Assembly: GCF_932294415.1 (NCBI RefSeq)
Contig: NC_065536.1
Coordinates: 50,034,354 to 50,098,353, forward strand
Source of the DNA: Quercus robur
Taxonomy: Eukaryota > Streptophyta > Magnoliopsida > Fagales > Fagaceae
Length of the DNA stretch: 64,000 nt
Direction of reading: 5' to 3'
Shown here: positions 4,622 to 50,122 of the stretch, piece by piece
Numbering within the stretch: position 1 is the first letter of the stretch
How the letters are laid out: each line of letters opens with the position of its first letter
The notes under the pieces: generated by a model
What the model was told of the DNA's origin: nothing
The model's database searches: none
Seen by the model: only the letters and a program-made list of their open reading frames with translations
Position numbers and translations under genes: made by a program

Positions 4622-4647
4622 ATCATTTAATGTAACTGCAAACAACT

Positions 4648-5755: not shown

Positions 5756-5768
5756 ATCTCCCCCTTTG
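5756..5768 (-). other. Polypurine tract of the Copia element
   Basis: On the minus strand this reads CAAAGGGGGAGAT directly before the 3' LTR start TGTAAGG. It is the expected plus-strand primer for reverse transcription. Confidence 0.75.
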
Positions 5769-7571: not shown

Positions 7572-7578
7572 GACCAGT

Positions 7579-13130: not shown

Positions 13131-13131
13131 C

Positions 13132-13143
13132 GCTCTGATACCA
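13132..13143 (-). other. Primer-binding site (initiator tRNA-Met type)
   Basis: The minus strand reads TGGTATCAGAGC, two bases inside the 5' LTR. It is the standard plant Copia site complementary to the 3' end of initiator tRNA-Met. Confidence 0.9.
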
Positions 13144-13145
13144 AT

Positions 13146-15205: not shown

Positions 15206-15210
15206 ATCCT

Positions 15211-23577: not shown

Positions 23578-24113
23578 ATAGCCGCTCAAAATCCTGCTGT
23601 CCGGATCCTCGGACGGAGAGGAGGGTTTTGGTAATATCAGGCTTTTGTCGTGGCTTGTCACGTCCTGTCCTTCATTAATGCTAGAGTCTTTTTATATGCC
23701 CGAGATGCATTTCTAGCGCCTTGGTATGTGAAGCGTGTCTTCAATGAATGCCAGCAGCTCTGTGCTCCCCACATTCAATGGTACGATGGTGATTTCGACA
23801 GTTGAGATTTCCTCACCTTTATGGGCGAGAAAACCCGCACAATTATTTTTAATGGGAGGTATAAATTCCCATTTGAACGGGCTTGCTCTTTACTTTTGCA
23901 CTTAAGAATTCTTGCGCATATATCCCGAGTTCAGTCAAACTTCCAGCCAAACTCAAGTTTCTTTCCAGTATAAAGAGCCTGTTCGAGGAGCTTTTCCTCA
24001 TTTCTGTAAATTTTCTTCGCTCTTCAACTTGTGCTTTTCTTCTTCTAAGTCTATCTTTCTCTTGCTCCTCTCTTCTTTCGTCGTCCCCTAGGTCTCCTAG
24101 GCAGTTTCTAGAG
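23578..24113 (+). promoter_or_regulatory. Upstream region of the antisense accessory gene
   Basis: Between the 3' LTR and the accessory ATG lie two plus-strand TATA-like boxes, TTTTTATATGCC at about 23,688 and GGTATAAATTCCC at about 23,857. A pyrimidine-rich leader follows. It could serve as an internal promoter; this is inference from position. Confidence 0.4.
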
Positions 24114-26712
24114 ATGGGTAAATTAAAAAAGTTGATTGAAACCGAAGAGGCGATGGAAAAATTCATCGCCGATTATAGGATATCCCCCAATGTGGGTCTG
24201 AGGTACTATGATGAAGGGGAGTGGCACTTTAGGAGAAAAACGGGTGAGGTGGTGATCCCCAATCTTGCCTTTATAGAGGGGGGCATGAGAATCCCCATGC
24301 GATTAGTGATGAGGGATTACCTTAGGCACTTCCAATTAGCCTCCACCCAGTGTGCTGCTAACGTGTTTAGGATTCTGGGTTGTGTGGATGCTTTAAACAA
24401 GGAAATGGGGCTAAGGTTAACCCACCACGACGTGAACTGGTGCTACAACCTCTAACTCCTGAAAGGCAAGTCCTACTATTTGAAGACGAGGGACGATAAG
24501 GTTCAGCCTATTCAGTGCCTCCCCGAGTCCAGCAAAGGGTTAAACAAGGACTTCCTTATCGTGTCTAGGGAGTGGCACGATGGCCTTCCTTGCCCCACGG
24601 TGGAGGGGGAGCCAGGTGGGGTATCTAGAGTGGGAGAGGGACAACCCCCCTTTTTTTGCCATCACGTTTTGCACGGTTTGGTTACTGATATGAACATGCC
24701 TTCTTTTTGCAAATCCACACGCCTTTCAGTGGCACTTCCATCTGATCAACAAGGAAGATTTGGAAACTATTCTCAGGGTGGCGGCTTTTGTAAACGAGGC
24801 GGACAACCAAGTCTGGGCCGCTCACAAGATCTTGGGGTACGATCCTATCCAAAGATCATTTGCTGACCCAAAATACGTGATCAGGGTAAATGATCCCGGG
24901 CTTAAGAGATTCACTGTAGTTGAGCACGGATTTCTGATTCTCGAAGGGTCTCCTGTCTAGGAGGGCATCCCATTGGCCAGCTCTTCCTCATCCCACCAAG
25001 CGACGGAAGTCGAGAATGATTCGGGTTTGCCCAAAGAAGGATTCAGTGCGTTTAACCAGGCTAGATCACCTGCAAATCCCGTTGGTGACTTGGGTGACCT
25101 CGACCTTTCCGAGGCGGATTTCTTGTTAGCGGGGACATCCTCTCAGGTGGAGATGGGTCTTAAAAGGAAACCCCCGGCAAGCCTGTTCGACCTAATTGAG
25201 GGCCAGCCAAGGAAGGAGGCACCTAGAAAGTTGCAGTCCAAACCTTCGCCTCCTCCGCTACAGCCTCAACCTGTTCAAACCAGGTCTTCCCCTGCTCATT
25301 CGCGAACACCGTCTCCCCGGCCTAAACACCCTGCTTCCCCCCAATCGACTTTACCTCCTTGGCCTGAGCCCACCGACTCAAAGAGGAAGAAGAGTTCTAA
25401 GGACAAAAAGCCGATGGATGAGAGGGAGTCGCACACACCCCAAAAGGAGGGCAAAGCCCCACGAGCTCAAAAGCAGCTAAAGATTGGGCCTCAAGGTCAA
25501 GGCAAGGAGATCAATGCTCAGTCTACGCCCGTGGCTTGGCTATCAGCCCCAATGCTCCACGGGGAACCGTTGATGGAAGATGCCTCTCTAAGGGACTTTT
25601 GAGGCGGCGAAGGCGCTTATGTGGCCGACGCTTTGGAAAGGTCCCTGCTCCTCCCCACCGACGTGAAGGAGTTAAAGAAGATGCGGAGGCAGGAGGTCTT
25701 CCTCAGCATAAAGAGGAACCTAGCCATGGTAAGGCTTCTGATACTTGTGACTCCGTCAATTTTTTGCTCCTTAATTTCCCATTCATGGTGTGCTTGCTCC
25801 AATTGGCAGGCCGTCCAAGCCACTTATAGGTTGAAGGATGACTTTAAGGAGCAGAGCAAGTCCTTGGAGACCTAGCATAATAAGCGCCTGGATGCTGCTC
25901 ATACCCTTAAGAACTCTGAGGCTAACCTCACTAAGGCCAGGGAGGACCTAAAGGAGATGACTAAGCAGAGGGACAACGCTAAAGTAGGCCTATCTGGTGC
26001 CCAAAAGCAGGCCGAGGCCTAGACGAAGCACTTACTTGAAGCTGAAGAACAGTTGAGGATTGCAAAGGAGCAGATTGACGATTTAAAGAAGAAGTCATCT
26101 AAGGCAGAGATGGCTAGGGGCGTCACCGAATGGGCCAGGGATGAAGCTCTAAGGGCTAAAATGGAGCCTGAATTTGCTAAGATGGAAGCTGAGACCTCCA
26201 AGGACAAAGTTGACGAGGAGGCCTATGACGCAGGGGTGGCCGATACCCAGGCCGTCCTTAAGGCTCAAATCCCTGGGGTATGTTGGCTTTTCTACTTCCA
26301 GGTCTGGAATAAAGCTCTTAAACAAGTTGGGGTGGAGGCTTCGTCTGATCTATGAAAGACAGAGATGGTGTACTATCCTTCAGCCATTTGTGAGACCAAC
26401 TCTGAGACGGTGAGTGCTCCGAAGGAGACTGAGGTTGCTCAACCTAAGGCTGCCCTGAACGTGTCCCTTGCTAACGAGCCAACCAAGGGGGGCGAGCTTC
26501 CTAAGGTGACAGAAATAGGTGGGAGTTCTAACCCTGAGGCGCCACAGGTGGCTGTCGGTTCCATAGTCAGCGTTCAGGACCCTCACGCCGAGAAGCCACC
26601 TTTCTTGATTCAACCCCTTCAGTCTATTTCTCTGGCTAATGTTACTCAGGGCCCCAAGGCCAATCCTGCTCAGCTTCCCAAGGAAGGGGCCAAAATAAAG
26701 TTGAAGAAGTAA
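24114..26712 (+). pseudogene. Antisense accessory gene of the Gypsy element (Transposase_28-like, with introns)
   Basis: From ATG at 24,114 the product starts MGKLKKLIETEEAME, then IADYRISPNVGLRYYDEGEW and LRLTHHDVNW. This domain is also seen, decayed, at 172-3224. Next come a segment ending VVEHGFLILEGSP, a Pro/Ser/Lys-rich linker (about 25,000-25,560), a long coiled-coil (about 25,810-26,270, rich in KEQIDDLKKK-like repeats) and a final QVWNKALKQVGVEAS block. One clear intron (25,729-25,809, GTAAGG...TTGGCAG) keeps phase. Another near 24,610-24,730 is likely. Stops at about 24,453, 24,958 and 25,600 and in the coiled-coil show decay. Its role is unknown. It converges with pol. Confidence 0.7.
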
Positions 26713-27118
26713 AGACTCTGTCCACCTTTTGTGTTGGATTTCTTTTTAGTTTAGTTTTTCTTTTCTTTTTTTAGTTAATTTGCTTCTGTTTTAGGAGTCT
26801 TGGAATTCGTTTGTAACTGAATTTTTCGACTATATATATAAAATTCCTTTTTTCTTTTCCCTTTTGAATCATGTGTTTATTGCCTTTACCGATATTACTA
26901 TTACTGCAAATCTTTTGGCTTGTGAATTAATTAACCTAACGGGTGTGAATGGTCGTGTACATAATATGTTTGAAGTTAAATCCCTCAATACTGTCTTACC
27001 GGTATCAAGGGGACGCTTAGTTTGCGTCCACCCATATTTTCAGGGGGCTAAGTGTATAATCCGAGGTGTCGAGCGTACACTTAGTTCGTATCCACAGCTT
27101 TTACAAAATTTGAAGTAG
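26713..27118. other. 3' flank of the accessory gene
   Basis: This is T-rich sequence followed by a degenerate version of the 78-bp repeat theme (GGGGACGCTTAG, TCCGAGGTG). No gene. Confidence 0.5.
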
Positions 27119-27508
27119 CTAGTTTCCCCATAGGCTTAAGTCCGAGGACCACGCAAGGCCTTGATTCTGTCTAATACTTAGATTTTCCTAGAGTGACTAG
27201 TTTCCCCATAAGCTTGAGTCCAAGGTCCATGCAACGCCTTGGTTCTGTCTAGTACTTGGATTTTCTTAGAGTGACTAGTTTCCCCATAGGCTTGAGTCTG
27301 AGGACCATGCAAGGCCTTAGTTCTGTCTAGCACTTAGATTTTCCTGTAGTGACTAGTTTCCCCATAGGCTTGAGTCCGAGGACCATGCAACGCCTTGGTT
27401 CTGTCTAGCACTTAGATTTTCCTGGAGTGACTAGTTTCCCCATAGGCTTGAGTCTGAGGACCATGCAAGGCTTTGGTTTTGTCTAGCACTTAGATTTTTG
27501 CCAGAATG
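27119..27508 (+). repeat. Five tandem copies of a 78-bp repeat
   Basis: CTAGTTTCCCCATA recurs at 27,119, 27,197, 27,275, 27,353 and 27,431, exactly 78 bp apart. Each unit continues GGCTTGAGTC, GAGGACCATGCAA, GCCTTGGTTCTGTCTA and CTTAGATTTTCC, with a few changes per copy. It lies in the untranslated region between convergent pol and accessory gene. Tandem arrays in this part of Tat/Ogre-like elements are known seeds of satellite DNA. Confidence 0.95.
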
Positions 27509-27701
27509 CGAGACGTGTAATCAAGATGGACTCAAAATCTGAACTAGAAAAACACTTTTATTAATAGTAATACCTTCTTAGGTTATTTATATTCCATGGA
27601 CGGGCTACAGCTTTTTCATCTAAGTCTTCTAAATAGTACGCTCCTATCCCCGCGACTAAAGTAATCCGGTATGGCCCTTCCCAGTTGGGTCCTAGCTTTC
27701 C

Positions 27702-28800
27702 CTATGATGGGTTTTTGGCAGCACCCATAACTTTCCTCAGCACTAAGTCCACTGGTGCTAGTGGTCTAAGTTTCACGTTGGCATCATACCCCTGTTTGAG
27801 CTTCTGATGGTAATAGGCCAATTGGACCATTACCTTTTCTCTTCGTTCATTGATCAGATCTAGGTTCTTCCTCAGTAGTTCGTCGTTACTATCCGAGGTG
27901 AATGAACTCGTCCTCAGAGTTGGGAAGTTTGTCTCTATGGGGATAACAGCCACAGCCCCATAGGTCATGGCAAAAGGTGTTTCCCCCGTCGACCGCCGTG
28001 GTGTAGTCCGATAGGTCCATAGGACATGCGACAGCTCTTCCACCCATCTTCCTTAGGCGTCATCCAGTCTTTTCTTAAGTTTGTTGACTATGACCTTGTT
28101 GACAACCTCGGCTTGCCTGTTTCCCTGAGGATAGGCTGGGGTTAAGTACCTGTTAGTGATCCCCAACTCACAGCAGTATCTTTTGAAGGCCTTGCTGTCA
28201 AATTGTAATCCATTGTTTGAGATGAGGGTGCGAGGGACCCCAAATCATGTGACAATGTTTCTCCAAATGAATTTCTTAGCATCCAAGTCTCTGATATTGA
28301 CCAGAGGCTCAGCATCGACCCACTTGGTGAAGTAATCGGTACCGACCATTAGGTACCTCTTATTTCCTACTGCCTTTGGGAAGGTCCTACAATATCCAGG
28401 CCCCATTGGACGAAGGGCCACGGACTGGACAGAGGATTGAGGATCCCGCCAGGTTGATGAATATTCGGGCTAACCTTTGGCACTGGTCGCACTTTTTAAT
28501 ATACTCCAGGGCTTCCTTCTGCATAATCCTTGGGTAATGGCTCGGTGTGACAAAGATCTTCCTCATGTGTGACTCCCATAGATCCCTTCGTGCAGTTCTT
28601 CAAGCAGCAGTTCTGATACCTCAGGGTGGACGCACAGTAAATATGGTCTGGAATATGAGCATTTGTACAATTTATGGTCCTCTGACAACCAGAACTGAGG
28701 AGCTTTTCTTCGTATTTTCTCCGTCTCTGACTTCTCCTCGGGTAAGATGTCATTTTTAAGGAACTTCACAATAGGATCTATCCAGCTAGGGCCCACTCTG
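27702..28800 (-). pseudogene. Gypsy integrase, broken
   Basis: On the minus strand: a zinc-binding part with LHEGIYGSHT and a CxxCQ-type remnant; core pieces resembling DYFTKWVDAEPL and a decayed GVPRTLISNNGLQF (the usual second catalytic D is N); PQGNRQAEVVNK; then a long clean stretch VEELSHVLWTYRTTPRRSTGETPF (28,043-27,702) ending AKNPS. Multiple stops and shifts. It follows RNase H in normal Gypsy order. Confidence 0.75.
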
Positions 28801-28829
28801 ACCTCATGAACATGGACAATGCCTTTGTC

Positions 28830-29894
28830 TACTTCATTTGCTCTGTCCAGGTGCTCGACGAGAATAATTCGAGGCAAATCCCCTGCCGAGGAGGTGGCAA
28901 GCATTGCCAGTGAATCTGCATGAGTGTTTCCACTTCTGGGGACATGCGACAAGTTGAAAAAGTCGAAACCCGGCTGTAAGCATTTGACCCGGCTTAAGTA
29001 CTCTTACATCCTTACATCTCTGGCCTCTAATTCCCCCTTTACCTGGCCTACTACTAGTCTCGAGTCCAAAAATATCTCCACTGCCTTTCCTCCCATTTTC
29101 TGTACCATGGCGATTCCTTGTAGCAGGGCCTCATACTCGGCTTTGTTGTTCATGGCTGGGAACCTAAGTCTCAGGGACTTCTCTATAATGGCTTCCTCGG
29201 GAGATATCAGGACTAGCCCTACTCTAGATCCTCTCTAATTCGCTGCGCCATCAACGTACACCTTTCAGCATGGGGGTCCTGGTGTAGAGATCACTCCAAC
29301 CGATTTTCTATCCATGTTCTGCTCCTCTGCCACTGTTTCTACTGGGGGTTCAGCGAATTCGGCCACTAAGTCTGCCAAGACCTGGCCCTTTATAAAGGTC
29401 TGAGGCATGTATTTGATGTCAAAAGCTCTCAGGATTGTGCTCCATATGGCAATCCTTCTGGTGTAGTTAGCGGTTCTCAATACAGACTTCAAGGGTAGTT
29501 GGGTTAGAACAACCATTGTGTGGGCCTGGAAATAATGGGGAAGCTTTCGCATGGTATGGACCACAGCCAGTATGGCTTTCTTCAGGGGTAGGTATCTGAC
29601 CTCGACTTCATGCAGCATCTTACTCACGTAATAGATCAGCTTTTGGATGCCATTGTTGTCCCATATTAGCACCAAGCTCATAGCATGAGGGGCTACAGCA
29701 ATGTATGCGTATAGAACTTCATCGGCCTCGGAACTAGACATGATAAGTGGCCGGGATAGGTAATCTTTGAGTTGCTGGAAGGCCACCACACAGTTCTTGG
29801 ACCACTCAAACCCCTTCCACTTGTTGATCAAGAGATAGAACGGCCTACATCTATCCGCCGATCTTGAAATGAATCGATTGAAGGCTGCAATCAT
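28830..29894 (-). pseudogene. Gypsy RNase H region, broken
   Basis: Frame 29,894-29,265 carries the RT-linked RNase H (YYVSKMLHEVEVRYLPLKK, YFQAHTMVVLT, FIKGQVLADLVAEF). Frame 28,952 onward continues a second RNase H-like tail (MSHVPRSGNTHADSLAMLA). Internal stops separate them. A two-part RNase H region is typical of Tat-type Gypsy elements. Confidence 0.75.
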
Positions 29895-29924
29895 CCCAGT
29901 AAGCTTTTGGACCTCCTTTGCATT

Positions 29925-30791
29925 TTATGGTGGTTTCAGGTCGTTTATGGCCTTGATCTGGTCAGGATTAACCTTGATTCCCCTATAGGTAACCATGTAG
30001 CCCAAAAACTTTTCTGACCCCACGCCAAATGAGCACTTGGAAGCATTCAGGCGCAGCTTATATTTCCTCAAGACGCCAAAGGTGCTGCCGAGGTCCCTTA
30101 AATGCTCGGACACCACTTTACTCTTCACCACCATGTCATTGACATAGATTTCGATGTTCCTGCCCAGCTGTGGTTCGAACATTTTTGTCATCATCCTTTG
30201 ATAAGTTGATCCCGCATTCTTTAGGCCAAATGACATTACCTTGTGGTGGTAATTTCCGATTGGTGTTATGAAGGCCATTTTTTCCTGATCCCCCATCGCC
30301 AATGGTATTTGGTGGTAGCCTTGAAAGGCATCTAAGAAGCTCATCCGAGGATGGCCCGCTGTTGCGTCCACTAGCTGGTCTATCCGAGGCATTGGGAACG
30401 GGTCCTTAGGGCACATCTTATTTAGGTCTGTGAAGTCCACGCAGACCCGCCATTTCCCATTTTTCTTCTTGACCACCACTGTGTTAGCCAGCCATTCAGG
30501 GTAAAAAACCTCTTTGATAGCCCCAACGTTTTTAAGCTTCGCCACCTCGTCTCGAATCGCATTGGCAAGCTCTTTTTGACGAGCAATAGGGTGGTTGCTT
30601 TTTGGGAATGATGGTCGAGTTGACATTGAGATGATGGCAAATGAAGGCTGGGTCGATCCCGGCGGCATCGTAGGCATCCCGTGCAAATACGTCAATATTT
30701 CTTTTAGGGAACTCAAACAGCTTCTCTTTCTCCTAGGGGGCAGTCGAGCCCCTACTCGGAAGAACTTCTCCGGGTCGTCGTTAATGACCAC
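29925..30791 (-). pseudogene. Gypsy reverse transcriptase with altered active site
   Basis: The 288-residue frame has EWLANTVVVKKKNGKWRVCVDF, CPKDPFPMPRIDQLVDATAGH, FLDAFQGYHQI and MSFGLKNAGSTYQR. The catalytic box reads IYVNDMVV where YVDD is expected, one D to N change (AAT). That loss should abolish polymerisation. The frame ends at a stop just before RNase H. Confidence 0.9.
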
Positions 30792-30860
30792 CTCTTCTAG
30801 GTCTTCGCATTTCGCCTCCTCGGCAGTTGTGTTAGGGGGCGAAACCGGAATCTTTAGTTA

Positions 30861-31283
30861 CTATAAATTCTCTTCAGCGGAGGCTGAGGACTCTGTGTTA
30901 AGTCGATGTGAGACGGCCGCTACCATGCATTGCCTCACTGTGGGTTGGCAACCACGGATTTCTAGGACTTGGTCTCCTGACGGGAATTTCACCTTTTGGT
31001 GCAAAAAGGAAGCAACAGCCCCTAGGGTATAGAGCCAAGGCCTACCGACAATGGCTGTATAAGGAGAGTAGTTGTCCACCACGATAAAGTTCACCTCCAC
31101 TATTTCCAGGTCGGTCTGGATGGGCAACCTGATCCTGCCCTTCGGAATGACAAACTTCTCGTTGAAGCTCATTAGAGGGGAGTTGTAGGGCATCAAGTCC
31201 TCCAGCTTTAACCCCAGCCCCTTGTATAGGTCGGGGTACATAACCTCAACCGCGCTACCGCCATCCACCATTACTCTTTTCAC
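30861..31283 (-). pseudogene. Gypsy aspartic protease
   Basis: The minus-strand frame starts MKRVMVDGGSAVEVMYPDLY, with catalytic D-G-G as in plant Gypsy proteases, then LPIQTDLEIVEVNFIVVD and AIVGRPWLY. It is separated by stops from gag upstream and RT downstream. Confidence 0.8.
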
Positions 31284-31331
31284 ATCGTAGTTCCCGATTC
31301 GGAGGTTGATTAGTAGTGCATCGTCGTGGGG

Positions 31332-32699
31332 CTAAATGGTCCCGATCTTATATTCCTTTGCAAAGCTTATGACAGGACAAAAGCTCATCCTGGCCCTCTT
31401 CGGCCCCGGTTGGGACTCCTTGGCAGGCAGTTGAGCCATCGATAACACTTGTGCAGGGTGCATGTCTGTTCTCCCTAGCGCGGCCATGATTACGCTAATC
31501 GTTCTTGCGGGTGGCCTCAAGGTGGCATCCCTCCTGCCCTCTTAATGGCCTTAATGACCACTAGAATGATGCAGCAGGTGCTTTAGCCTTCCTTCCTAGA
31601 CTAGCTGGTCTAGGTGGTTCCAGAGGTTCTTGCAGTTCTCCGTAGTGTGGCCATAGTCTTAGTGGTATTGGCAATAAAGGTTCTGATCACGCTTCGAGGG
31701 TTCTCCCGCCATCTTATTCAGCCACCTAAAGTATAGCTCGTTCTTGATTTTCTCTAAAACCCGATGCACTGGTTCTCAGAATACAGCATTGACAGTTCAT
31801 GCATTGGTTGTACCGAGTTGCCTTACAAAGTCCTTCCTCAGGCGGTTGCTACCATACTAGTCTGACCTGAAATCCCTCCTCTCTTGAGGGATAACCTTCT
31901 CTTTTCCTCTTTCCTATAATTGGTCTTCCTTTACTCGCTTGTACTTATCGATCCGATCCATCAGTTGATGCATACTGGTGGCGGGCTTGCCAGTCAGAGA
32001 CTTCCGCAAGCCGTGATCAGCTGGGAGATTGTTTTTGAAAGTGATAATGGCGACGTCGTCAAATTTGTCTTCCATTTCATTGTACGTCTCCCAATATCTG
32101 TCCGAGTAGGCCTTTAACGTTTCTCCATCATGCATGGATAACGACAACAACGCGCTCAAAGGCCGAGGGGCTCTGCGATTTGTAACGAAGCGGGAGCCAA
32201 AAGCTTGGGTCAGCTGCCTATACAAGTCGATGGAGTTCGTCTTCAAACCATTAAACCACCTCATCGACACTGGTCCCAAGCTGGACGGGAAGACCTTGCA
32301 CATCAGCGCCTCGTTCTTAGAATAGACAGCCATCCTTTGGTTGAACTGGCTCACATGCTCTACCGGGTCTGTTCTACCTTTGTAAATGGCGAAGGTTGGC
32401 TGCTGGAACCGTCGAGGGAGTATGGGCCCTTCTATGTGGTGCGTGAAAGGCGACTTGGAGAGTTGATCCAGTGTCTTGCTCATGGCGTCGTTTCCCAAGC
32501 CCCTAGGAGATGGGCTTCTACGCCTACGCCTTTGGTAACGTTCTTCTTCGTGGCAGAAGGTCTCGCTTGAGGGAGTCCTCGATCTTCGTCTATAGTCGTC
32601 ATCATTTTCATCATCGGAGGGCGCGTCAAGTCTGGAACAAGATTGCCTTTGCTGTGCATGGTACAGCTTTCTTTTCAGATCGTCTATCTCTTGCTGCAT
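31332..32699 (-). pseudogene. Gypsy gag
   Basis: The main frame 32,699-31,914 (261 residues) begins MQQEIDDLKRKL. It has an Arg/Ser-rich segment and the retrotransposon gag domain (PILPRRFQQPTFAIYKGRTD, MRWFNGLKTNSI, YWETYNEMEDKFDDV). Past the stop, the minus strand still shows a zinc-knuckle-like CQYH...DYGHTTENC and a tail ending RARMSFCPVISFAKEYKIG, with several stops. Gag lies next to the 5' LTR as expected. Confidence 0.85.
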
Positions 32700-32996
32700 G
32701 GATTGCCTATCATTCTGTTTCTAAGACATATAGCTCCTGACTTCCTCCTGTTGTGGGGTCCGGTTGTTATTTTGTCTCTGAAGCACGTGGCTGCCCGTGC
32801 GAGAGTGGCTCCTGCTGGTTTGGGTGGTGTTTACGCTTCCCTCTCGAAACCTTCCATTCTCTTCGTTTTGGTTGCGCTCGGAGTTGGGGAAGTTACCTTG
32901 TCGTTGGGATTTGGCTAGTTCGAGCTAATGGGAGCCTTTTTAATGAGGGTCTGACCCTACCATGCCGGATCGTTGTCCTTACTAACACACAAGTTC

Positions 32997-33014
32997 TTCC
33001 CACAAACGATGCCA
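32997..33014 (-). other. Primer-binding site of the Gypsy element
   Basis: The minus strand reads TGGCATCGTTTGTGGG, two bases inside the 5' LTR. The same style of site (TGGCACCATCTGTAGGG) occurs in the Gypsy remnant at 35,416. Confidence 0.75.
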
Positions 33015-33016
33015 AT

Positions 33017-33817
33017 TGTAGGGTGTTGGTTTTCAGCACCCTTTCTATTGGACGAGAGGTCTCAAGCCCAACTAGCCCAATATAATGAATTTTTAGAAAG
33101 TGGGCCTAAGAACTAGGTGTTGATCTAAACCACAATCAAAATACATGGTTGGGTGTGGACGGACCAATGAGGAAATGGGTTCAAGCCTAAGATGTTGTCC
33201 CCGAGTGTTTCGTCCGAGGAGCTTGATGTTCTTCTTTTTCTACTTTCTGTACTAGGTTCCCGTGGTTTTTCAAGACCATGCAGATTGCTGCCGTTTTCTC
33301 CTTTTTCTCTCTTCCTCTCCCTTTCTTGCAATCCCCCACTCTTGGGGGGTCTTTCCTATTATATACTTCTTTCCAGTCAATCCTGACCCTCCATCTGTTG
33401 ATTGTCCAGGCCATTACTCGAGTGCTCGTCCCATCAACCACCTTCCCAAACCCTCTATGAGTTGCGGCAACCAAGATTATACTGTTCAGGGGACCTTTCA
33501 TCATTAATACGGCCAGGACGTTAGTTGGGCGCATTAAATGCGGAGGTGACAGCTTTTCCTTAAACTGCTCCCACTCCATACCCCCGTGTGCGTCCTGCTG
33601 TACCCGTCCTTTCTTCGGGGAATGCTTTGGGAGGCTACCTTTGATGGTGTGCCATTCTTTCCCACTGGAGTCTGGAACGCCAAGGACAGAATTGTCCTCG
33701 GCAACATCTCTAGACCATTTGGATTTTTAGCGCATGTCCTCGGACATTTCTATCCTCGGCGCGGGCCTTGGGCTCAGCATAGAGCGGGCTAGGGTCGCCA
33801 AGTTCTCTGGCCCCACA
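33017..33817 (-). repeat. 5' LTR of the Gypsy element
   Basis: It runs from TGTAGGGTG to CCCCACA on the plus strand. The TATA is at about 33,355-33,365 on the minus strand. It is followed inward by the primer-binding site. Confidence 0.92.
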
Positions 33818-38728: not shown

Positions 38729-40077
38729 TGATAGGCCAAGAATGTATTGACCCCTTGTGATGAATTTAACCAATTAATTAGCCAAGTTAACTAATTAATT
38801 CAATTACATGCAATAAGCGTAGTAGCATAAACAAATCACCAACTAAGTTAATATGCAACGGAAAATAAATTTGACGCGGGTGATTTGTTTACGAATAGGA
38901 AAAACCACCGAGGCAAAACCCCACCGGGTGAATTTAAGGTCACCACTCCCGAGAATCCACTATTATCACAACAAGCAGTTACAAGTAAAGAAATCCCAGT
39001 ACCTTATACCAACCTAATACCCAATTGGACTTGTTTTGTAGTGACAATCTCTCATTTTATTGCAAGGCTCCCAGTACGTGACTAACCAATTGCACGGATC
39101 CCAGTACGCAACTTAATCACCAACTTGAAAAAGATGTTAGCTGCAAAGTTCTTCAGCTCATCACAAGATAAAGATCAAGAAGCTCCTTGGTCACAAAACC
39201 CTACGATATACAAACACAACAGCTTCTTCAAGAGAAAGATGAACTAGGAAAAATTTTGTCTCCTGTCACAATTTGCACGAACAAAACTTTGTTTTACACT
39301 TACGCAACCTTTGACGGCCCTTAAAATAATCCTTATATATGTTTATGGTTGTGAGAAAAGAAAGCCCAAACACATATTCACGGATTGGATGAAAATCAGA
39401 GCTAAAAGTCTGTTTTTCATAAACCTCAATAGATAGCTTATCTGTCGAGCTGGCTGTCGAGCATCGGGCTTCAGCAACTTTGGAATCTCGATAAATACTA
39501 GCTGTCGAGCTAGTTGTTTAGTTTTAAAATCCAGCACTTGGTCACTTGTTTTTTGCAGAAACTTGCATGGTTTTAATGTTTATTCTTGAAACCTTGTTCC
39601 TTGAAGTATTAAACACATTCTAAATCTACCCAATTACAAGTAAAGTGCAAAACAAACAAATGAACATATGAGAGAAGTCATAAATCACTCAACTCATATT
39701 CACTTGTTGAATACAATAAAATCTATCCTAACACAAACTCTTGAAAAACTTTACAAGAAGAGAGTTTATGGCAAGAAAACTTTAACAACCTGTATTTCTA
39801 AAACACTTTAAACAAAACTCATCACAGCATCTTAGTGTGAAATAGAAATAAAAGATTGCATACAAGATATAAGATGTGCATAAAGAGAGAAAAGAAACAA
39901 CACATGAAAAGATAGGTGAATAGTATACATCAATAGATATAAACCAAATATAAATACAATGTATGTTACATGGTCAGAAGACCAATATACATGAGGTAAA
40001 TGTAAAAGAAAAGAAAAAGAAAAAAGGTAAGATCCCCACTACATCCCTCAAAAAAAATATGGACCCTCCCTCTAACA
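38729..40077 (-). repeat. 3' LTR of the pol-deleted Copia
   Basis: The left end TGATAGGCC is firm, because it is shared with 44,051. The right end is placed at CTCTAACA (40,077) because the next bases on the minus strand are purine-rich (AGGGGGAGAGTTAGC). A minus-strand TATA (ACATATATAAGG) lies at about 39,335. The word TCGAG/CTCGA recurs at 39,430-39,520 just upstream of it. Confidence 0.6.
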
Positions 40078-40172
40078 AAAATCTCCTATGCTAACTCTCC
40101 CCCTATGTATATGACCACTCTCAAATCAAAACTACTCTCCCTTTATGTCACGAGTGACAAAGGGTAAGTACA

Positions 40173-41174
40173 TCAAGTAGACATCTCCTCATCACTGGGT
40201 GAGCTAGAATCATCACTGTGTGTGTCAAGGCGAGCATCCATGTGCACAAGCTGTGCCATGATGGCCTCAAGTGTCACTCCACCCACTGAAGAAGAAGGAG
40301 CGAAGGTGGATGGAGCTGCAGGGTTGGAAGAGCTGCCGTCTCAGTCTGCATCAGCCTTAGGTGAAGCTGAGCATCACTTTGTCTAATAGTAGCTGTGTCA
40401 ATGGCATCCACAACGAAGAAGTGATCGGACGGAGGAAAGGAGACAAAAAAATGGCGAAGAATCCTCATGATAGCCAAAGGAAAATTGAGCTTATCATAGG
40501 TCATCGTATCTCTATAGACATCTATAAGGAATAGGATGAAGTGAGAAGGGAAGTTGATAGAAAGATCCTCAATGAGGGATAACAAAAATCGAGCACGTGG
40601 CTCTGTGATAGTGTCATAATGAGACAAAGGATGGAGAACAACTGTCATCACTATGTTAAGGTATCTCGGATTGGGTGTTTTGATGATCACCCTATGAAGA
40701 TGGTCTCTCACAGAATAGAGACATGAGTTCGTCTTTGGACATAGTCCTCAAACGATCGCAACTAGGGTAGTCAAGATGTGCTACCCTAGGAACGTGTAGT
40801 ACCTTGGATACAATCTCCAGAGTAACTACAATGCGCGTACCCCGAACGCGAGAGAAGAAATGAGATATAAAAGTATCAAATCATTGCATATTGGAGTAAA
40901 ACTTTTGTATGATCACGGAGGGACAAGTGACCGGGACCTCACACAATGACTCCTAACCCCTAATGTAGATGACAGTGGGTAGGTCAGTATCAGAAAAATC
41001 CGATAAGATGACTTGGCATTTTGAATGAATGCCTCATCGAGAAAAGTTCTCCAAAAAGTCCTTTCGAGCTTTATTATCACGGAACCGTATGTGAGAAGGA
41101 GTGGGGTCAAAAGAAGAAGATGCCCCGGAATGAAGAGGGTTCTGGGACAGGGTGGATTTTCATTTAGGTGCCAT
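40173..41174 (-). pseudogene. Accessory ORF (plant transposon-protein type), decayed
   Basis: Minus-strand ATG at 41,174 gives MAPK then a stop. Beyond it, similarity continues as HSGASSS, DPTPSHIRFRDNKARKDF, VPVTCPSVIIQKFYSN, then (shifted frame) LNIVMTVVLHPLSHYDTITE and RARFLLSLIEDLSINFPSHF, then (original frame) GGVTLEAIMAQL and an acidic end, stop at 40,173. Start and end are in one phase (1,002 nt), with compensating shifts and stops between. The FYSN and FLLSLIEDLS features recall the domain of the ORF at 6546-7571. It runs with gag. Confidence 0.7.
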
Positions 41175-41185
41175 AATGCAACTAA

Positions 41186-41579
41186 CTAAAAGAAAGAGAG
41201 AGAGGGAGAAAGAGACACACACAAAAAAACACCAAACAAATCAATATATAGGAATATAAAGAAATGAAGGTACATATACATGAAAATGCATGAACACGTG
41301 ACATGTAAACTTAAAAACATCATGGGCTCAGGCCAATCCAAACCTAACAGCACACAACAAATCAATAAATATAGCACACATCTATAATGCATCAAAATAT
41401 AGTTATAATGCAAGTGTGATGCAATGCATGATATTATTGGATTATATAAACATAACCCAACCCAAAAATTTCACCAAAACTTTATCAATTTCGAAAAACC
41501 CCAAAAGTTTTCAAAAAATCCCAAAATCTAGGTCAGAATGCATGAAATGTATGATTAAAGGCTAGAAAAGAGATCATAC
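41186..41579 (-). other. Predicted leader intron of the second accessory gene
   Basis: Minus-strand donor CTCATAG/GTATGATC (exon ends 41,580) and acceptor TTTCTTTTAG (exon resumes 41,185), preceded by a strong pyrimidine tract. The ATG follows after 11 nt. Length 394 bp. Splicing is inferred. Confidence 0.55.
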
Positions 41580-41990
41580 CTATGAGAAATGCAATGAAAA
41601 GACCAAAGAATAAGTAGGGAAGATGAAGAGGTTGAGTGAGAAGAGTTTGGGAGAGAGAAAAGTGATTTTCTGTCGAGAGAGATTGGGGAGAACTGAGAGA
41701 AAATCGTGCGGATCCAATATATAAAAAAACATAATTCTCGATAGATTAAGAGGTGTCGAGAGGTATCGAGGATTAAAAACATGTGTATTATCTGTCGAAG
41801 AGCTATCCAGAATCTGTCAAGAAGTGTCCACAACTAAAGGATCTCGATGGATCAAGGTAGCTATCGAGAAGCTATTGAGCATCCAGAAAGTTTTTTGATG
41901 GATCATGCAGCTATCGAGAATGCGATAAAAAGCAGCTGAAGGGTCTCGACAGATAGCCTAGCTATCGAGAGGTATCGAGAAGCTATCGAG
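41580..41990 (-). promoter_or_regulatory. Candidate internal promoter: TATCGAGA motif array, TATA box, leader
   Basis: Plus 41,730-41,990 holds many copies of CTATCGAG, TATCGAGA and TGTCGA. On the minus strand a TATA (TTTTATATATTGG) follows at 41,715-41,725, then a pyrimidine-rich leader (TTCTCTCAG, CTCTCTCGAC) to the donor at 41,580. The same motif family occurs in this element's LTR upstream of its TATA. The layout equals that at 8072-8490. Confidence 0.55.
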
Positions 41991-43090
41991 ATTACTTAAA
42001 AACAGTTTTTCAAAAAAGAGAAAAACACAGACATGAATGCAATCAAACATGCTACTCAACCAAGAATCCAATCAACATATTAAACTCTCAAAATCATCTC
42101 TCAACAAGAAAAATGTCAAGCACATAGATCATAAACACACACACACACACAATAGGTCTAACCAATTTTATATTTCAAAAACAAGTTAAGACAGTTTAGT
42201 GAGAATACATTAACACATGTATTATTTGTGATGGTCAAATCACATCGTACTTGCACATGTATCGAAGAGTAGCAAAGAATATTGCGTGTTGTATGTGAAA
42301 AACATCGCAAGGTTGCATAGATGTCTACATGTTATGACAATTTGAGATATAAGAAAATCATTTTAACTCACACACAATCATAACTGTTTGATAGGGACTA
42401 TCACATTCGAGGTACATCCTATAACTCCCACATCTCCTAGAATACACGCTTGCAATCATATATAAAGCATATTTATTCTTTTTGCTTTTATTTTTCTTTG
42501 CATATTTTTCTTTTAAGCAAACCATGCATGGGCATATAAGAGATAAAAAAGAAATATCCAATTATGTTAAGCTTTTGACATTGCACTTTTGCTATGCCGA
42601 AGTATACAGATGTCATTTCATGATTGGCAGGTAACAATGATGAGATGGTTATTTATGTCTTTCTCTTAGAATTTTCTAGTCCTTCTCGTCAAAAAAAGTG
42701 ATACGAATGTTAAGTACAAGAGATTACTTAATCTTACTCATCACAAACACGAGCCATAAAGCTCACTTGCTTAGTTGTGCATAGAGATACTCATCTAAGC
42801 TACAAAAGATACAAAGTTTAGAAAACTTTGTTTCAATGGCTATCCAAGGTACACAAGTACCAATATACACAAACACATAGTGTTTTTGTATTTCTTTTTA
42901 TTTTTCAATTTTTTATGAAAAAAATAAAGCAAAAACTGAAAACAAACAAACAAAAACATGTTAAAAAAAAAAAAAAACAAAGTATAAAACAAGATGCATA
43001 TGCATGAAAGCATGATTCCAAAAAGATAAGAAAACAAGCAAGAGAGTCCTACTTTAGATAGAAAGAATTAAAGCAGAGGACAAACAAAAA
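41991..43090. other. Non-coding part of the pol-deleted Copia
   Basis: This lies between the gag remnant and the promoter-like array. It has a CA microsatellite (about 42,137-42,151) and A/T-rich text. No RT, integrase or protease motif is visible. Confidence 0.6.
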
Positions 43091-43095
43091 GACAA

Positions 43096-43993
43096 TTAAG
43101 TCTTAGGATCCTTTATCACCCACACAACAGTCTTTGGCCGTGAAGATAAAAAGAAACGTGTCCTAATATGACTACTAAAGGACATAGAGGAATTAGAATT
43201 CCCCTGAAATTGAGTTAAAAAGCTCAAAGCTTTTAATAACTCACCAAGAATAGGTACAAAGCCTTTAGACAAAGGATGAGACCTATTGGACACTCGCTTA
43301 TGAGGAAACAACTTGAAACAATTAGGACAAGTGTGACCAGAAACACCACAATGGTGACAAAGATGAGTAGTTTTTGAACTACTATGCTTCCTAGAAGGAG
43401 GTCTAACCTTAGAGGTTGACAAAGATCTCAATTTAGGACAATTTGGCCTAATATGACCAACAATATGACAATGATGACAGTGGGGACAAATTCAGAATTT
43501 TTATTCTTCCTAGGAGGAGTTTTAGACATAGGTTTAGAAACTTCAGCGTTAACATCAGAATTTTTACCTTTATCTATCCTAGCAATATTAGCCTTCAACT
43601 CTTCATTATTCCTTTTAAATGGAGGAATATAAAAATCTTTTTTTTTTTTTTTTAGTTAGGCTCAACAAGAAGTTTGGCACTAGTTAATTTTTCAATTTCA
43701 GTTTTAAATTCAACTAATTGCTCTTCCAAACTCTTAATTTTGTCCATTTGAGATGAAATTTGAATTTTAAAATTCTCATTCAAATTATTGGTTTCATCCA
43801 ATTTTATAATCAAATCATCTTTTTCAAGCTTGACCCTTTTCAATTTAGCTTTTAATTTTGTAGAACTTTTAAAAGATCTCATACAAAAATTATAAAGCTT
43901 ACAATAGGCATCTTGAATATCATCATCATCATCATTTAACATAAGATCATGCAAATCAAAACAATCAAGAGTTTCCATGACAACAGGGGTCAA
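43096..43993 (-). pseudogene. Copia gag C-terminal region with two zinc knuckles
   Basis: Frame 43,993-43,652 encodes an acidic start (LMLNDDDDDIQDAYCKLY) and a coiled-coil rich in Lys/Glu/Leu. After a poly(T) run and a shift, a second frame has two CCHC knuckles, CHHCHIVGHIRPNC (about 43,500-43,460) and CHHCGVSGHTCPNC (about 43,360-43,320). It ends VVWVIKDPKT with a stop at 43,096. The capsid half is missing, and no pol follows. Confidence 0.75.
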
Positions 43994-44037
43994 TGGATTT
44001 TACACAATAGAGATTAACCCTAATCAGAGTGTGTCTA

Positions 44038-44048
44038 CTCTGATACCA
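44038..44048 (-). other. Primer-binding site of the pol-deleted Copia
   Basis: The minus strand reads TGGTATCAGAG two bases from the LTR end, as in the Copia at 13,132-13,143. Confidence 0.85.
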
Positions 44049-44227
44049 CTTGATAGGCCAAGAATGTATTAACCCCTTATGACGAATTAATCAATTAATT
44101 AGTCAAGTTAATTAATTAATTCAATTACATGCAATAAGCATGGTAGCACAAAAAAATCACCAACTAAGTTAATATGCAGCGGAAAATAAATTTGACACAA
44201 GTGATTTGTTTACGAATGGGGAAAAAC

Positions 44228-44671
44228 ATGAAGTTCACGTTCTGGGAAAGAAGAAATGTTCTTATGAAAAAAAAAACTAAAAAATTTAATTTAATTTAAT
44301 TATTTTAATGTTTATTTTTAAAATATTTTGAATTTTTCGATTTGGCTATTTGTTTTAATTTTTTATTAATTTAAATCTGGTGTGGCATTTAAAAAATACC
44401 AAATAATTTTTTTAATAATATTTTAATGGTTACGTCAGTGCCATATTAACTAGCAGGGCATTCTGTCTGCCATGTAAAAAATTTCTATTAGTAGGTTGAC
44501 AGCAAGGATTAAAATAAAATCAATTTTATTTTTTTAAAAACTATATTAGTAGCAAAATCAATTTATGGACCAAAATAAAATTGGTCTAAAATATAGAGAC
44601 TAAAAGTACATTTTCGGACCAAGTTTTAAGTTAGCTTTAGAATTCTGCCGTTTATCCTAAAAAAAAAAAAA
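44228..44671. other. Gene-free A/T-rich sequence
   Basis: The Copia LTR similarity stops at about 44,227 and unrelated A/T-rich sequence follows. No gene or clear repeat. Confidence 0.6.
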
Positions 44672-45002
44672 AAGTTAGCTTTAGAATTATTGTCGTCCAC
44701 TGGTTGGATTTTCTATTACAATTTCGGCTTGACCAAGTCTCCCTTACGTGTTTCTAAATAATAATAAAAAACTTATTTATATTACCAATAATTATATTTG
44801 TGTCTATAGCATTTTATAGATACTATTATTTTATAAAAAAAAACCTCCCTTTACTAACTACTGTCAACGTAATTTAGAAGTTGTGATTTTTCGTGTCTCC
44901 AGTGCCGACAGATTAAATAAAGGCTCCAAGCTCAAATTAAAGTATAGTCTTCTTGGTGAAATTTTTTTTCAAATATAATCTTGGTGAAAGTGTTACATTG
45001 TT

Positions 45003-45039
<37 letters not shown>

Positions 45040-46664
45040 CCACTACCTTTTTTTTTCTGAAAATATCTTTATCGTTGAGATCAAATTAATTTTCTCAAAA
45101 AACACAAATCAGAGAAGAAAAAAAAAAGGAATTTTAAGTTTTTAACAAATATTTGTGAATATATTGTGAAAATGTTATGAATATAGCCTTTCTCCACAAG
45201 ACAATCCTCATAAAAGGTAGGTCATAAATTCAAATTAAAAAATAAACCATTTTTATTTATGAAGTAAAAAAATTAAGACAAAAATGCAAAACTAACCGTC
45301 TAACTTTTTCCTTTTTTTCATTTCAGTTCTCTAACTTTCAGTTTTGTCAATTTAGTCCTCTAACTTTCAATTTTTATCAATGCAGGACTCCATTACAAAT
45401 CAGTTAGTGGCTGTCGTTAGAACTCCTAAAACGACGCCATTTTGCATTTTTTTTTTAATTCGGAATTAAAAGGAAAAAAAAAATCTGGAGAAAAAAAAAA
45501 AACATTAAGGGGAACGACCCTTCCCCAGTCGTTCCCCTTCCCCTAAAATCAAAACAGATCAAAGAAAAATCTAGCACAAAACCCAGAAAGAAATCAAAAC
45601 CAAAATGCAAAAAACATTAAAATCAAGAAACTAAGGCAAACCCATATGAATTTATGGTCATAACATAACTCGGTCACTTATCTTTGAAGATGAATGTACG
45701 AAGCATACTATTCATTTGAATCTTGCTCCAAAGCTCTCTTGCACAGATAAGCCCTTCTCTCTTGCATGGAGGACAATGGTGGGTGATGGTTTGGGTTTTT
45801 GACATTGCTCTCTCTGTCTTGCAAAGATCGGTGGATATGACCACCATTGCATGATATCGTTCATCTGGGTTTGCCAACATTTGACCGAGCTCCTTCTCCT
45901 CCCACCATAAATTCATATGGCTTTGCCTTAGTTTCTTGATTTTAATGTTTTTTGCATTTTGGTTTTGATTTCTTTTTGGGTTTTGTGCTAGATTTTTCTC
46001 TGATTTTTTTTGATATTGTCGTTCCCCTTAATTTTTTTTTTTTTTTTCAGATTTTTCTTATTTTCTTTTAATTTCGAATTAAAAAAAATTGCAAAACTGC
46101 AGCGTTTCAGGAGTTTTAACGGCAGCCACTAACTGAGTTGTAACGGAGTCTTGCGTTGATAAAAATTAAAAGTTAAAGAACTGAATTGACAAAACTAAAA
46201 ATTAGAAGACCGAAATAAAAAAATGTGAAAGTTAAAAGGTCAGTTGCATTTTTGCCAAAAATTAAAATTATAACCACCATACCAACTTTCCAATTTACCT
46301 TTTTACTTTTTCGTCAAAACAAAAGTTAGCTTTAGAATTATTGTTGTCCACTGGTTGGATTTTCTATTACAATTTCGGCTTAACCTAGTCTCCCTTACGT
46401 GTTTCTAAATAATAATAAAACACTTATTTATATTACCAATAATTATATTTGTGTCTATAGCATTTTATATATACTATTATTTTATTAAAAAAAAAAAAAA
46501 AAAAAAACTCCCTTTACTAACTACTGTCAACGTAATTTAGAAGTTGTGATTTTTCGTGTCTCCATTGCCGACAGATTAAATAAGGGCTCCAAGCTCAAAT
46601 TAAAGTATAGTCTTCTTGATGAATTTTTTTCTTTTCAAATATAATCTTGGTGAAATTGTAACAT

Positions 46665-46702
<38 letters not shown>

Positions 46703-47020
46703 GAGTTGCAAATTGCAATAGGATACTTACTATCCACTTTTTATTTTACGTTTTTTTTTTTCTGAAAATATCTTTATCGTTGAGATCAAATTATTTTCTT
46801 AAAAAACACAAATCAAAGACCAAAAAAAAAAAAAAAGAGGGAATTTTAAATTTTTAGCAAATATTTATGAAAATATTGTGAAAATGTTATGAATATAGTA
46901 TTTCTTCCCAAACAACTTTCATAAAAGGTAAGTCATAAATTCAAATTAAAAAATAAACCATTTTTATTTATGAAGTAAAAAATTAAAATTATAACCACCA
47001 TACCAACTTTAAATTACTAA
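44672..47020 (+). repeat. Tandem duplication upstream of the receptor gene
   Basis: A unit of about 700 bp beginning AGTTAGCTTTAGAATTATTG occurs at 44,672 and again at 46,324 in the same direction. Both copies contain TTGGATTTTCTATTACAATT, an AT microsatellite (about 45,008-45,040 and 46,669-46,695) and end at ATAACCACCATACCAACTTT. Copy 1 carries a 980-bp insertion that copy 2 lacks. Copy 2 ends about 150 bp before the receptor start codon. Confidence 0.85.
45277..46256. mobile_element. Long-TIR Mutator-like element, 980 bp
   Basis: Inverted arms of about 370 bp (for example AAATCTAGCACAAAACCC on the left, its complement on the right at about 45,978) leave a core of about 240 bp. Ends are GACAAAAATGC and GGCAAAAATGC (reverse complement). 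A perfect 9-bp duplication AAAAATTAA flanks it (45,268-45,276 and 46,257-46,265). Copy 2 of the surrounding duplication shows the empty site near 46,975-46,990. No transposase; arm length and 9-bp duplication point to a non-autonomous MULE. Confidence 0.85.
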
Positions 47021-47130: not shown

Positions 47131-47169
47131 AGCATTTAAACCTTCGACATTGAAAATAGTCAAGCAACG

Positions 47170-50122
47170 ATGGCTAGCATGAAAACCACCTTTCTACTTG
47201 CTCTTATTTACCTTCTTTTGCAAACTGAGTTGATTTCACTTGAAGCTATATGGTCCAATTCTAGTGCTGGCAACTCCACTGTGGGTTGCATAGACATGGA
47301 AAGGGAAGCCCCTCTGAAATTTAAAGGACTTTATGATCCTTCAAGAAGACTTTCTTCCTGGGTTGGAGAAGATTGCTGCAACTGGTTAGGAGTAGGCTGT
47401 AGCAACCGAATAGGTAACATCATAAAACTCGGTCTCAATAGGACATTTTTCTGTGACCCATATTCTGGTATTACATCAACAGAATGTAGGAAGCACTGGC
47501 CTTTGGGTGGTGCTTTATCTCCTTCTTCGCTTGAATTAAAATTTCTAAATTACTTGGATCTAAGCTACAACGATTTCCAACAACTTCCCATCGCAAATTT
47601 CATTGGTTCTCTCAATAAGTTGAGTTACCTTGATCTATCCTCTGCAAACTTTGCTGGAACGATCCCTCCTCAAATTGGGAATCTTTCTAACTTGCTTTAT
47701 CTTGATCTCTCTGGGAATCCCCAAACAGCTTCAAATATAAATTGGCTCTCCGGTCTCTCTTCCCTAAAATACCTCAATTTGAATGTCGTGAACCTTTCCG
47801 AAGCAACTACTGATTGGCTTCAAACTGTTAATTTGCTCCCTTCTCTGCTGGAGTTGCACTTGTCCGATTGTGAACTTCATTATCTCCCTCAAAATTTTCC
47901 CTCTGTCAACTTTACGTCACTTTCAGTACTTGATCTCTCTCATAATGACTTCAACTCCTCTACAATTCCTCAATGGGTGTTCAATTTCACTTCCCTCACA
48001 AATCTCCAACTTATCTATTGTAATCTCACAGGCTCCATCCCTAAGATTGCAAAGGGTAACCTATGCAAATTGCAGACTTTGGATTTATCAGAAAATAATT
48101 TCAGTGGCGAAATAACAGAATTTTTCCAGGCCTTATCGGAATGCAGTAACAGTAGCCTAGAGGAGTTAAATTTGAGCGGGAACCAACTCATTGGGAATAT
48201 CCCACATTCTTTGGGGAATTTAAAACGTTTGAGAAAACTGAAACTTCACAGCAACACAATCTCCGGTTCAATTCCATCATCTATACAAAATTTTGTCCCG
48301 TTTGGAGATACTGTACCTCGAAGACAACAAGATGAATGGAACCATCCCAGAATCAATTGGACAACTTTCTGAGTTGAGAGAGTTGCGTCTCTCCGGGAAT
48401 TACTGGCAAGGTATCATGACTGAAACTCATTTCCTAAATCTCACAAAATTGTATGTTTTTTCCTTGTCATCATCATCTAGTAACCTTTTAGTTTTCAATG
48501 TGACACATGACTGGATTCCTCCTTTTAGTCTACAATATGTCTATATTTTGGACTGTCAATTGTACCCTACATTCCCTGCATGGCTTAGAACACAGAAGGA
48601 ACTCACAGAGATCCATTTAGTAAATACTGCAATTTCAGATACAATACCGAATTGGTTGTGGAACTTGTCTTCACAACTTACGGTGTTGGATCTTTCTCAT
48701 AACAAATTAATGGGAAACCTCCCCAAGTCATTAAACATCTCTTCCGTACCGTCGGTACTTCTAGATTTTAATCATTTAGAGGGTCCACTACCACTATGGC
48801 CTAATGTGACAAGGCTTTCTTTGAGAAGCAATTTACTTTCTGGACCAATACCGATAAGAATCAGCCAAGAAATGTCGCACTTGAGTACTTTAGATCTCTC
48901 TGGCAACTTTCTAAATGGTAGCATCCCATCATCCATAAATGGACTAGGACAATTGAAGTATCTTGTTCTATCAAACAATTGTTTATCCGGAAATATCCAC
49001 AACCACTGGAAGAGTATGCAAAGTCTGGTCTTCATAGATCTGTCCAAGAATAATCTATCTGGTGGCATTCCAAGCTCAATGTGCTCACTACCTTCTCTTA
49101 TGTGGTTGCAATTGAGTAACAACAATTTTTCTGGGAACCTCTCTTTATGCCTGAAATTTGTTCCAGGCATATCACTATTAACACTTGATCTTGGTGAGAA
49201 TAGATTGTCAGGGACCATACCAAAATGGATTGGAGAAAGACTTCCGTTCATAACAATATTAAGCTTAAGAGGAAATATGCTCTTTGGAAAAATTCCTAAA
49301 CAATTGTGTGGTGCCACTTATATCCATGTCTTGGACCTTGCCCAAAATAATTTCTCAGGATCTATTCCATCGTGTTTTGGTAGTTTGGCTGGTCACAAGT
49401 ATTTCTATGACAACACATATGCAGAAATCACAAAGCATATGGATTTGGTTGTTAAAGGAAGACAATATGAATACTACAATCAAATCTCAAATGTTAGTCT
49501 CATGGATTTTTCGAAAAATAGTCTTTCAGGAGAGATCCGAACAGAACTAACAAATTTGATCTTATTGAATTCATTGAATTTGTCATGGAACCATTTGACG
49601 GGAATGATACCAGAGAATATTGGAGCTTTGCGCCAATTAGAATCTCTTGACCTCTCTTGTAACCATCTTTCAGGTCACATTCCTTCAAGCATGTCTTCTA
49701 TGACTTTTTTGAGCCATTTGAACTTGTCATATAACAACTTATCTGGACAAATTCCATCATCCAACCAATTTCAAACCTTCAATGATCCATCCATTTATGT
49801 CGGTAACCCTGAACTTTATGGGCCTCCTCCATTGCCAACAAGTGTCTCAACGCCAAGTGACAGGAATGCAAAACATAAAGATCAAGAAGATGTACATGTA
49901 CATATTGATGGTGAAGATCAATTTGAAAAGTTATGGTTTTACCTAAGTATTACACTGGGTTTCATTGTGGGATTCTGGACTGTTTGTGGCAGCTTGTTGA
50001 TAAAGAAGTCTTGGAGACATGCTTACTTCTGTTTTGCTGATAAAGTGAAAGAAAAGCTTTTAGTGGTCATTGTAATGAAAATGGTTTGTCTGCAGAGGAA
50101 GATTCAAGCAGGAAGTCACTGA
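47170..50122 (+). CDS. EIX2-like LRR receptor-like protein, one frameshift
   Basis: This is an intronless gene for a plasma-membrane receptor-like protein without kinase. The family senses microbial ligands (tomato EIX2 and relatives) and signals through SOBIR1-type partners. Seen: signal peptide (residues 1-26), N-terminal cap with Cys pairs (SWVGEDCCNWLGVGC), about 28-30 extracellular LRRs of LxxLxLSxNxLxGxIP type, an island (VVKGRQYEYYNQISN), an acidic juxtamembrane stretch and a TM helix (LWFYLSITLGFIVGFW), then a short basic tail. An extra T in the run 48,291-48,294 shifts the frame after residue 374. The second frame continues to 50,122. Ignoring the shift the product is about 983 residues, normal for the family. 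The partial copy at 15.2 kb has the unshifted length. Either a recent null allele or a sequence error. Confidence 0.85.

Follow-up and report, generated by a model that had tools for sequence, protein, structure and literature searches.

A PF20167 accessory gene of Sirevirus-type Copia elements in Quercus robur has a putative internal promoter and a putative 5'UTR intron

The third gene of plant long terminal repeat (LTR) elements has been proposed to be expressed by splicing, by read-through or from an internal promoter. Grande, a Ty3 element, carries such an accessory gene, gene23, which is transcribed from its own promoter in the accessible part of its description. The accessible text of a 2010 survey of Sireviruses (PMC2829016) describes repeated motif (RM) boxes in the LTRs and before ENV, with extra boxes in all nine RM elements that have ENV; these boxes are palindromic, and 12 of the 13 motifs share a CGG-CCG core; an internal promoter was supported there but not located. 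Within the parts available, other reports have env-like genes driven by the 5' LTR (PMC7264820) and PF20167 in the accessory frame of a sunflower Athila element (PMC11728184). Here we describe positions 41,580 to 41,990 of a 64,000-nt stretch of the Quercus robur genome (the window), which belong to an element that we call Copia 2 and which we read as probably representing the internal promoter and the 5' untranslated region (5'UTR) intron of a PF20167 accessory gene, located between pol and the 3' LTR of Sirevirus-type Copia elements.

Motif boxes combined with an internal promoter pattern are not new in kind (PMC2829016). Like the RM boxes in the accessible text of that survey, the motifs considered here are element-specific and were found in the U3 region of the LTR upstream of its TATA box and again between pol and the third gene. 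Unlike the RM boxes, they contain CTCG (CTCGCGRC in Copia 1, a second element in the window, and CTCGAYAG in Copia 2) and have no palindromic CGG-CCG core; unlike the Sireviruses described there, these elements carry a PF20167 gene instead of ENV, a TATA box in the Copia 2 type (C2-type) and a putative 5'UTR intron. The CTCG-containing motifs, the PF20167 gene, a definable core promoter region, the putative intron and the presence of array blocks at both sites would be what this locus adds to the described pattern. A literature search, with subscription papers mostly outside its reach, found no report of a mapped internal promoter plus 5'UTR intron for a Sirevirus accessory gene. The relevant features of Copia 2 are:

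38729-44227, minus strand: Copia 2, a pol-less Sirevirus-type relic (LTR stretches 38729-38905 and 44051-44227 match at 90.4%)
38729-40094, minus strand: 3' LTR of about 1.37 kb, with the upper end predicted by the rule of polypurine tract plus 10 bp (accessible text of PMC2829016)
39332-39339, minus strand: LTR TATA box TATATAAG, downstream of the U3 motifs, read from the sequence
39425-39509, minus strand: CTCGAYAG motif in the LTR U3, five copies with at most one mismatch
40097-40104, minus strand: polypurine tract AGGGGGAG, single copy
40173-41174, minus strand: PF20167 accessory gene relic, ATG at 41174, with stops and frame changes
41182-41579, minus strand: putative 5'UTR intron of 398 nt, donor GT at 41579-41578 and acceptor AG at 41183-41182
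41580-41690, minus strand: leader (exon 1), its start placed from the TATA position
41716-41723, minus strand: internal TATA box TATATATT
41737-41995, minus strand: internal motif array, CTCGAYAG type
43096-43999, minus strand: gag relic in pieces, with two CCHC knuckles seen by eye in the translation
44038-44048, minus strand: primer binding site TGGTATCAGAG
44051-44227, minus strand: 5' LTR remnant, cut to 177 bp, U3 lost

An earlier reading of the sequence alone (the sequence-only reading) had located the array, the TATA box, the donor (exon end 41580, context CTCATAG followed by GTATGATC) and the ATG where we find them. It had also claimed the motif for the LTR of the same element, upstream of the TATA box, and this is borne out: CTCGAYAG with at most one mismatch occurs 13 times in 41740-41995 (mean 0.68, maximum 4 in 500 first-order Markov sequences) and five times in the U3 (mean 0.19, maximum 2). 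The description of Copia 2 as a Copia element with an accessory gene was incomplete: no match to the pol of Copia 1 was found anywhere in it, the 5' LTR is reduced to 177 bp and the gene is a relic, with a stop already at codon 5 and a piece that scores 21.9 bits against PF20167, where Pfam sets its gathering cut-off at 45 bits. This copy is dead, and it seems to be nested in a putative Ty3 pol fragment.

A 29-bp array pattern, searched with at most two mismatches in the same genome (786 Mb), recovered 54 places including the one in the window, and the reversed control none; 20 of the 53 others, those listed right after the window's own, were fetched, and 15 of these aligned at 73-79% to the block of promoter, leader, intron and start of Copia 2. 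Within the resulting 16 rows (15 loci and Copia 2), most retained GT and AG: the donor GT is present in 14, the ATG in 13, a TATA-like sequence in 14 and a strict TATA[AT]A nearby in 12, the distance from TATA to donor is 133-142 nt in 15, and the aligned intron measures 370-407 nt, with a mean identity to Copia 2 of 76%. The acceptor TTTTAG (AG at 41187-41186), which had been proposed together with an intron of 394 bp and an ATG 11 nt behind it, occurs in one of the 16 rows, namely Copia 2 itself, whereas the AG 4 nt downstream (TTAG, 41183-41182) is kept in 14; the intron is therefore placed at 41579-41182 (398 nt), with the ATG 7 nt later as in Copia 1. A cluster of exact motifs also lies in the 3' U3 region of 10 of the 15 loci, and two more (L013 and L017) have one, besides the array, only near the 5' end of the locus. 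Pol lies upstream of the layout in two loci (L010 and L018, 53-74% to the pol of Copia 1). In seven others, LTR-like pairs lie at a distance of 5.9-6.8 kb and no pol match was found. Copia 2 thus belongs to a family in which copies that lack pol retain the array together with the accessory gene or a relic of it.

The same layout recurs in the second element, Copia 1, which spans 4643-14253 on the minus strand:

4643-5755, minus strand: 3' LTR, U3 motifs at 5411-5597
6858-7571, minus strand: PF20167 accessory gene, behind pol, shortened by a stop
7579-8071, minus strand: putative 5'UTR intron, 493 nt
8210-8492, minus strand: internal motif array, CTCGCGRC type
9557-12910, minus strand: pol, a 1117-aa frame with RVT_2, rve, gag_pre-integrs and other domains
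13142-14253, minus strand: 5' LTR, U3 motifs at 13909-14095, 97.8% to the 3' LTR

Its accessory protein scores 53.8 bits against PF20167 (Transposase_32), over the cut-off. By polypurine tract and primer binding site both elements look like Sireviruses: a AGGGGGAG tract precedes the 3' LTR in each, and Copia 1 has four such tracts (6452, 6428, 6409 and a terminal one at 5758, whose position agrees with the Sirevirus rule of 10 bp upstream), like the Sireviruses in the accessible text of PMC2829016, which have several, while Copia 2 has a single one. Two further AGGGGGAG tracts occur outside these elements in the 64 kb, both on the other strand. Copia-type pol domains are found in Copia 1 itself and, for Copia 2, in its relatives L010 and L018.

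Seven upstream regions of Copia 1's own family have the donor GT in six cases (the exception is L029) and the acceptor AG in six (L030 has CGG). We further picked, from 116 listed, 14 more distant loci of the Copia 1 type (C1-type), with accessory proteins 57-75% identical to P0116; 12 of them and Copia 1 make up a count of 13 rows, L037, L038 and L029 being left out. The donor GT is present in all 13 (10 by alignment; L036, L043 and L044 by a GTATG site of their own), and an AG precedes the position of the start codon by 0 to 7 nt in all 13, the start in L042 being ATA. Of the order that the sequence-only reading had taken to be common to Copia 1 and Copia 2, array, leader, intron and ATG are thus shared; a TATA box in Copia 1 had to be rejected, as TATA[AT]A precedes the donor in none of the 13 C1-type rows, Copia 1 included. 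At 8180-8240 the alignment shows that several C1-type arrays end with a GAAAAnCGCGTGTTTT-like block followed by a TTTTCCCTCG-like stretch, which could be part of a TATA-less core promoter. L037, considered as an LTR joined to the gene, was rejected: its positions 232-1344 hold a solo LTR of the Copia 1 type, flanked by ATTAC at each end and inserted into an older element upstream of that element's accessory gene. L038 was dropped, no promoter region being seen in it.

The motifs of the two elements differ, as had been claimed, and each is shared between array and U3 within its element. Copia 1 has eight copies of CTCGCGRC internally (Markov mean 0.81) and eight in U3 (0.52). The Copia 2 array and its own U3 share 20 8-mers (shuffles 2.4 ± 2.1, maximum 11 of 500) and those of Copia 1 share 27 8-mer positions (shuffle mean 2.7), whereas the cross-element comparisons of array and U3 yield one shared position each, which is at chance level (shuffle means 3.0 and, for the Copia 2 array against the Copia 1 U3, 1.8). 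The arrays are thus related to their LTRs. Neither of the two outcomes that would have counted against the sequence-only reading was observed, as the GT and AG are also retained in most rows of both types. With 17 arrays compared to 17 U3s (12 C1-type loci, Copia 1, Copia 2 and three of the 15 C2-family loci, in windows set by hand), mean 7-mer sharing is 10.9 for the own U3 and 7.0 for others (permutation p about 1e-4). This excess comes from the division between C1-type and C2-type elements, as the own U3 ranks anywhere from 1 to 14 within the rows. Inside the C2 family, the array aligns to its own U3 no better than to those of other copies (own mean 33.2, others 33.2; 11 of the 16 copies, the five lacking one of the two windows being left out). 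The proposal that each array evolves together with its own LTR is therefore true by element type and not by copy.

Three of the 20 fetched places (L019, L023 and L024) have an internal-type array inside LTR sequence. The L019 block matches internal arrays of the C2 family best: its top five matches, 115-178 bp long at 77-84% (best E 4e-33), are all of this kind, and the blocks of L023 and L024 behave in the same way. A partner LTR was seen for L019 only: its 5' partner L050 also carries the block (91% over 1122 bp), and no match to pol or accessory proteins was found in L019/L050. The same block thus precedes the accessory gene in some copies and forms part of the LTR in others, a distribution that movement of array blocks between the U3 and the accessory promoter would produce. 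The internal promoter, which the sequence-only reading had likened to a U3 copied in front of the gene, is not a whole U3 copy: within a window element, no homology of promoter and LTR was found outside the array.

The accessory proteins themselves were followed through two genome searches, in which the best 150 of 6384 candidates (PF20167) and the best 150 of 4883 (Copia 1 accessory protein) were scored. In the latter, 128 of the best 150, a favourable sample, have no stop inside the match, and frames of 368 aa are found in many. The ratio of non-synonymous to synonymous substitution (dN/dS) among five open frames is low, at 0.10-0.28, in seven of ten pairs, three with dS above 1.7, and the remaining three pairs yielded no dS. 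Among 240 database proteins, 14 read through upstream of the ATG, mostly in stretches rich in F, L, S and C such as a pyrimidine tract would give. Named relatives among the protein matches listed are from Quercus suber and Lithocarpus litseifolius; searches of viral_contigs and genome_contigs returned no relatives. The AlphaFold model of the protein is poor (predicted local distance difference test, pLDDT, 55), and Foldseek found nothing for it in PDB at E ≤ 0.001. A third PF20167 type, represented by L051, has a 389-aa frame, with many similar places among the matches listed. Upstream of its gene (reverse strand, first 650 nt) it carries an array of AACTCGATT, which contains CTCG, with 13 copies (at most one mismatch), where Markov sequences have 0.18 on average and at most 2. 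No LTR was found for this type and no polypurine tract in L052, and it was excluded from the counts.

In working members, a sense RNA would probably begin just downstream of the array. A short 5'UTR intron, 370-407 nt long in the C2 family and 493 nt long in Copia 1, would probably be removed from it, and translation would start at an ATG that lies 0 to 8 nt behind the acceptor. One trans-acting factor could act on both promoters, because array and U3 carry the same short motif, and array blocks may now and then be exchanged between the U3 and the internal site by recombination or template switching. The pyrimidine tract, the AG beside the ATG and the presence of the same arrangement in the other type speak for splicing. 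Several observations weigh on the other side. An AG a few nt from an ATG is frequent by chance; the donor GT is one of seven GTs among 32, and the acceptor one of four AGs among 12, that are kept in at least 13 of 15 rows. Three of the 15 C2-family loci (L014, L015 and L025) have no exact-motif cluster in U3, and L020 and L021 keep the array, with a polypurine tract within about 300 nt and no accessory match found. The C1-type has no TATA box, and in one of the seven loci of Copia 1's own family, L029 (positions 1-1301), a deletion joins a Copia 1-type LTR (to about 845) straight to the accessory intron in front of a 368-aa frame without stops, so that an LTR can stand in. In addition, six ENV-bearing Sireviruses in the accessible text of PMC2829016 lack motif boxes altogether.

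In a first alternative, the 5' LTR would drive the accessory gene, through splicing or read-through as described for env-like genes, and the array would be a boundary, an enhancer or a methylation feature instead of a promoter. The LTR joined to the intron in L029 and the TATA-less C1-type agree with it, and the accessible text of PMC2829016 cites BAGY2, Athila and SIRE1 as cases of splicing and of stop-codon suppression, but the TATA-to-donor spacing is constant in the C2 family, the order of array and TATA box mirrors that of the LTR, and this route would have no need of a donor immediately before the gene; in our estimate it is unlikely. We regard it as very unlikely that the arrays arose as neutral expansions of short repeats, spread through recombination and without a regulatory function: the blocks at both sites, the copy-level match to the own LTR that is no better than to others and the family-specific tandem arrays of Retand, of unknown function in the accessible text of PMC11963269, would suit it, but the position before the accessory gene and in U3 recurs in both types, with 19-24% identity between their accessory proteins. 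For an internal promoter, two types in one genome offer a core promoter region that can be delimited, a putative 5'UTR intron that recurs, numerous open copies and blocks at both sites; the hypothesis and the identity of the protein that would read the boxes are therefore directly testable.

A wider version of the internal promoter reading, which we consider unlikely, is that the PF20167 protein itself recognises the CTCG-containing arrays at its own promoter and in U3. This would make a self-contained trans-activator or anti-silencing circuit with co-diverging protein and motif, and pol-less elements would keep gene and circuit while borrowing pol. In foamy viruses, which are animal retroviruses, an internal promoter is served by Tas, the same regulator as the LTR. 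By analogy only, the likeness to the present elements would be a second internal promoter sharing the regulator of the LTR. Grande gene23, in the accessible part of its description, likewise sits in a plant element behind pol and before the 3' LTR, has its own promoter and encodes a nuclear product; it differs in being antisense to gag-pol, with no link to a U3 motif seen there. VANC of the VANDAL transposons resembles the proposed circuit in combining an element-encoded protein with family-specific arrays of short motifs in non-coding regions (accessible text of PMC5735166); VANDALs are DNA transposons, and VANC binding was demonstrated by chromatin immunoprecipitation and electrophoretic mobility shift assay, unlike the arrays here, which are known from sequence alone.

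The window contains further repeats and genes. A Ty3 element at 22775-33817, with LTRs 91.7% alike, matches gag, reverse transcriptase and RNase H on its minus strand. It also contains a 78-bp tandem array at 27119-27498 and a plus-strand open reading frame with a weak match to PF04195 (E 0.0016, below the cut-off); it looks like a member of the Retand lineage with an antisense TRP28 gene. A long inverted repeat at 45306-46230 (arms of 213 and 114 bp, 79% and 95% complementary), within a local duplication (44665-45276 against 46316-46986), is perhaps a foldback element. Two related copies of a leucine-rich-repeat receptor-like gene, named by eye, lie at 15209-16116 and 47140-50122 (84% DNA identity over 917 columns), the latter open in two overlapping frames.
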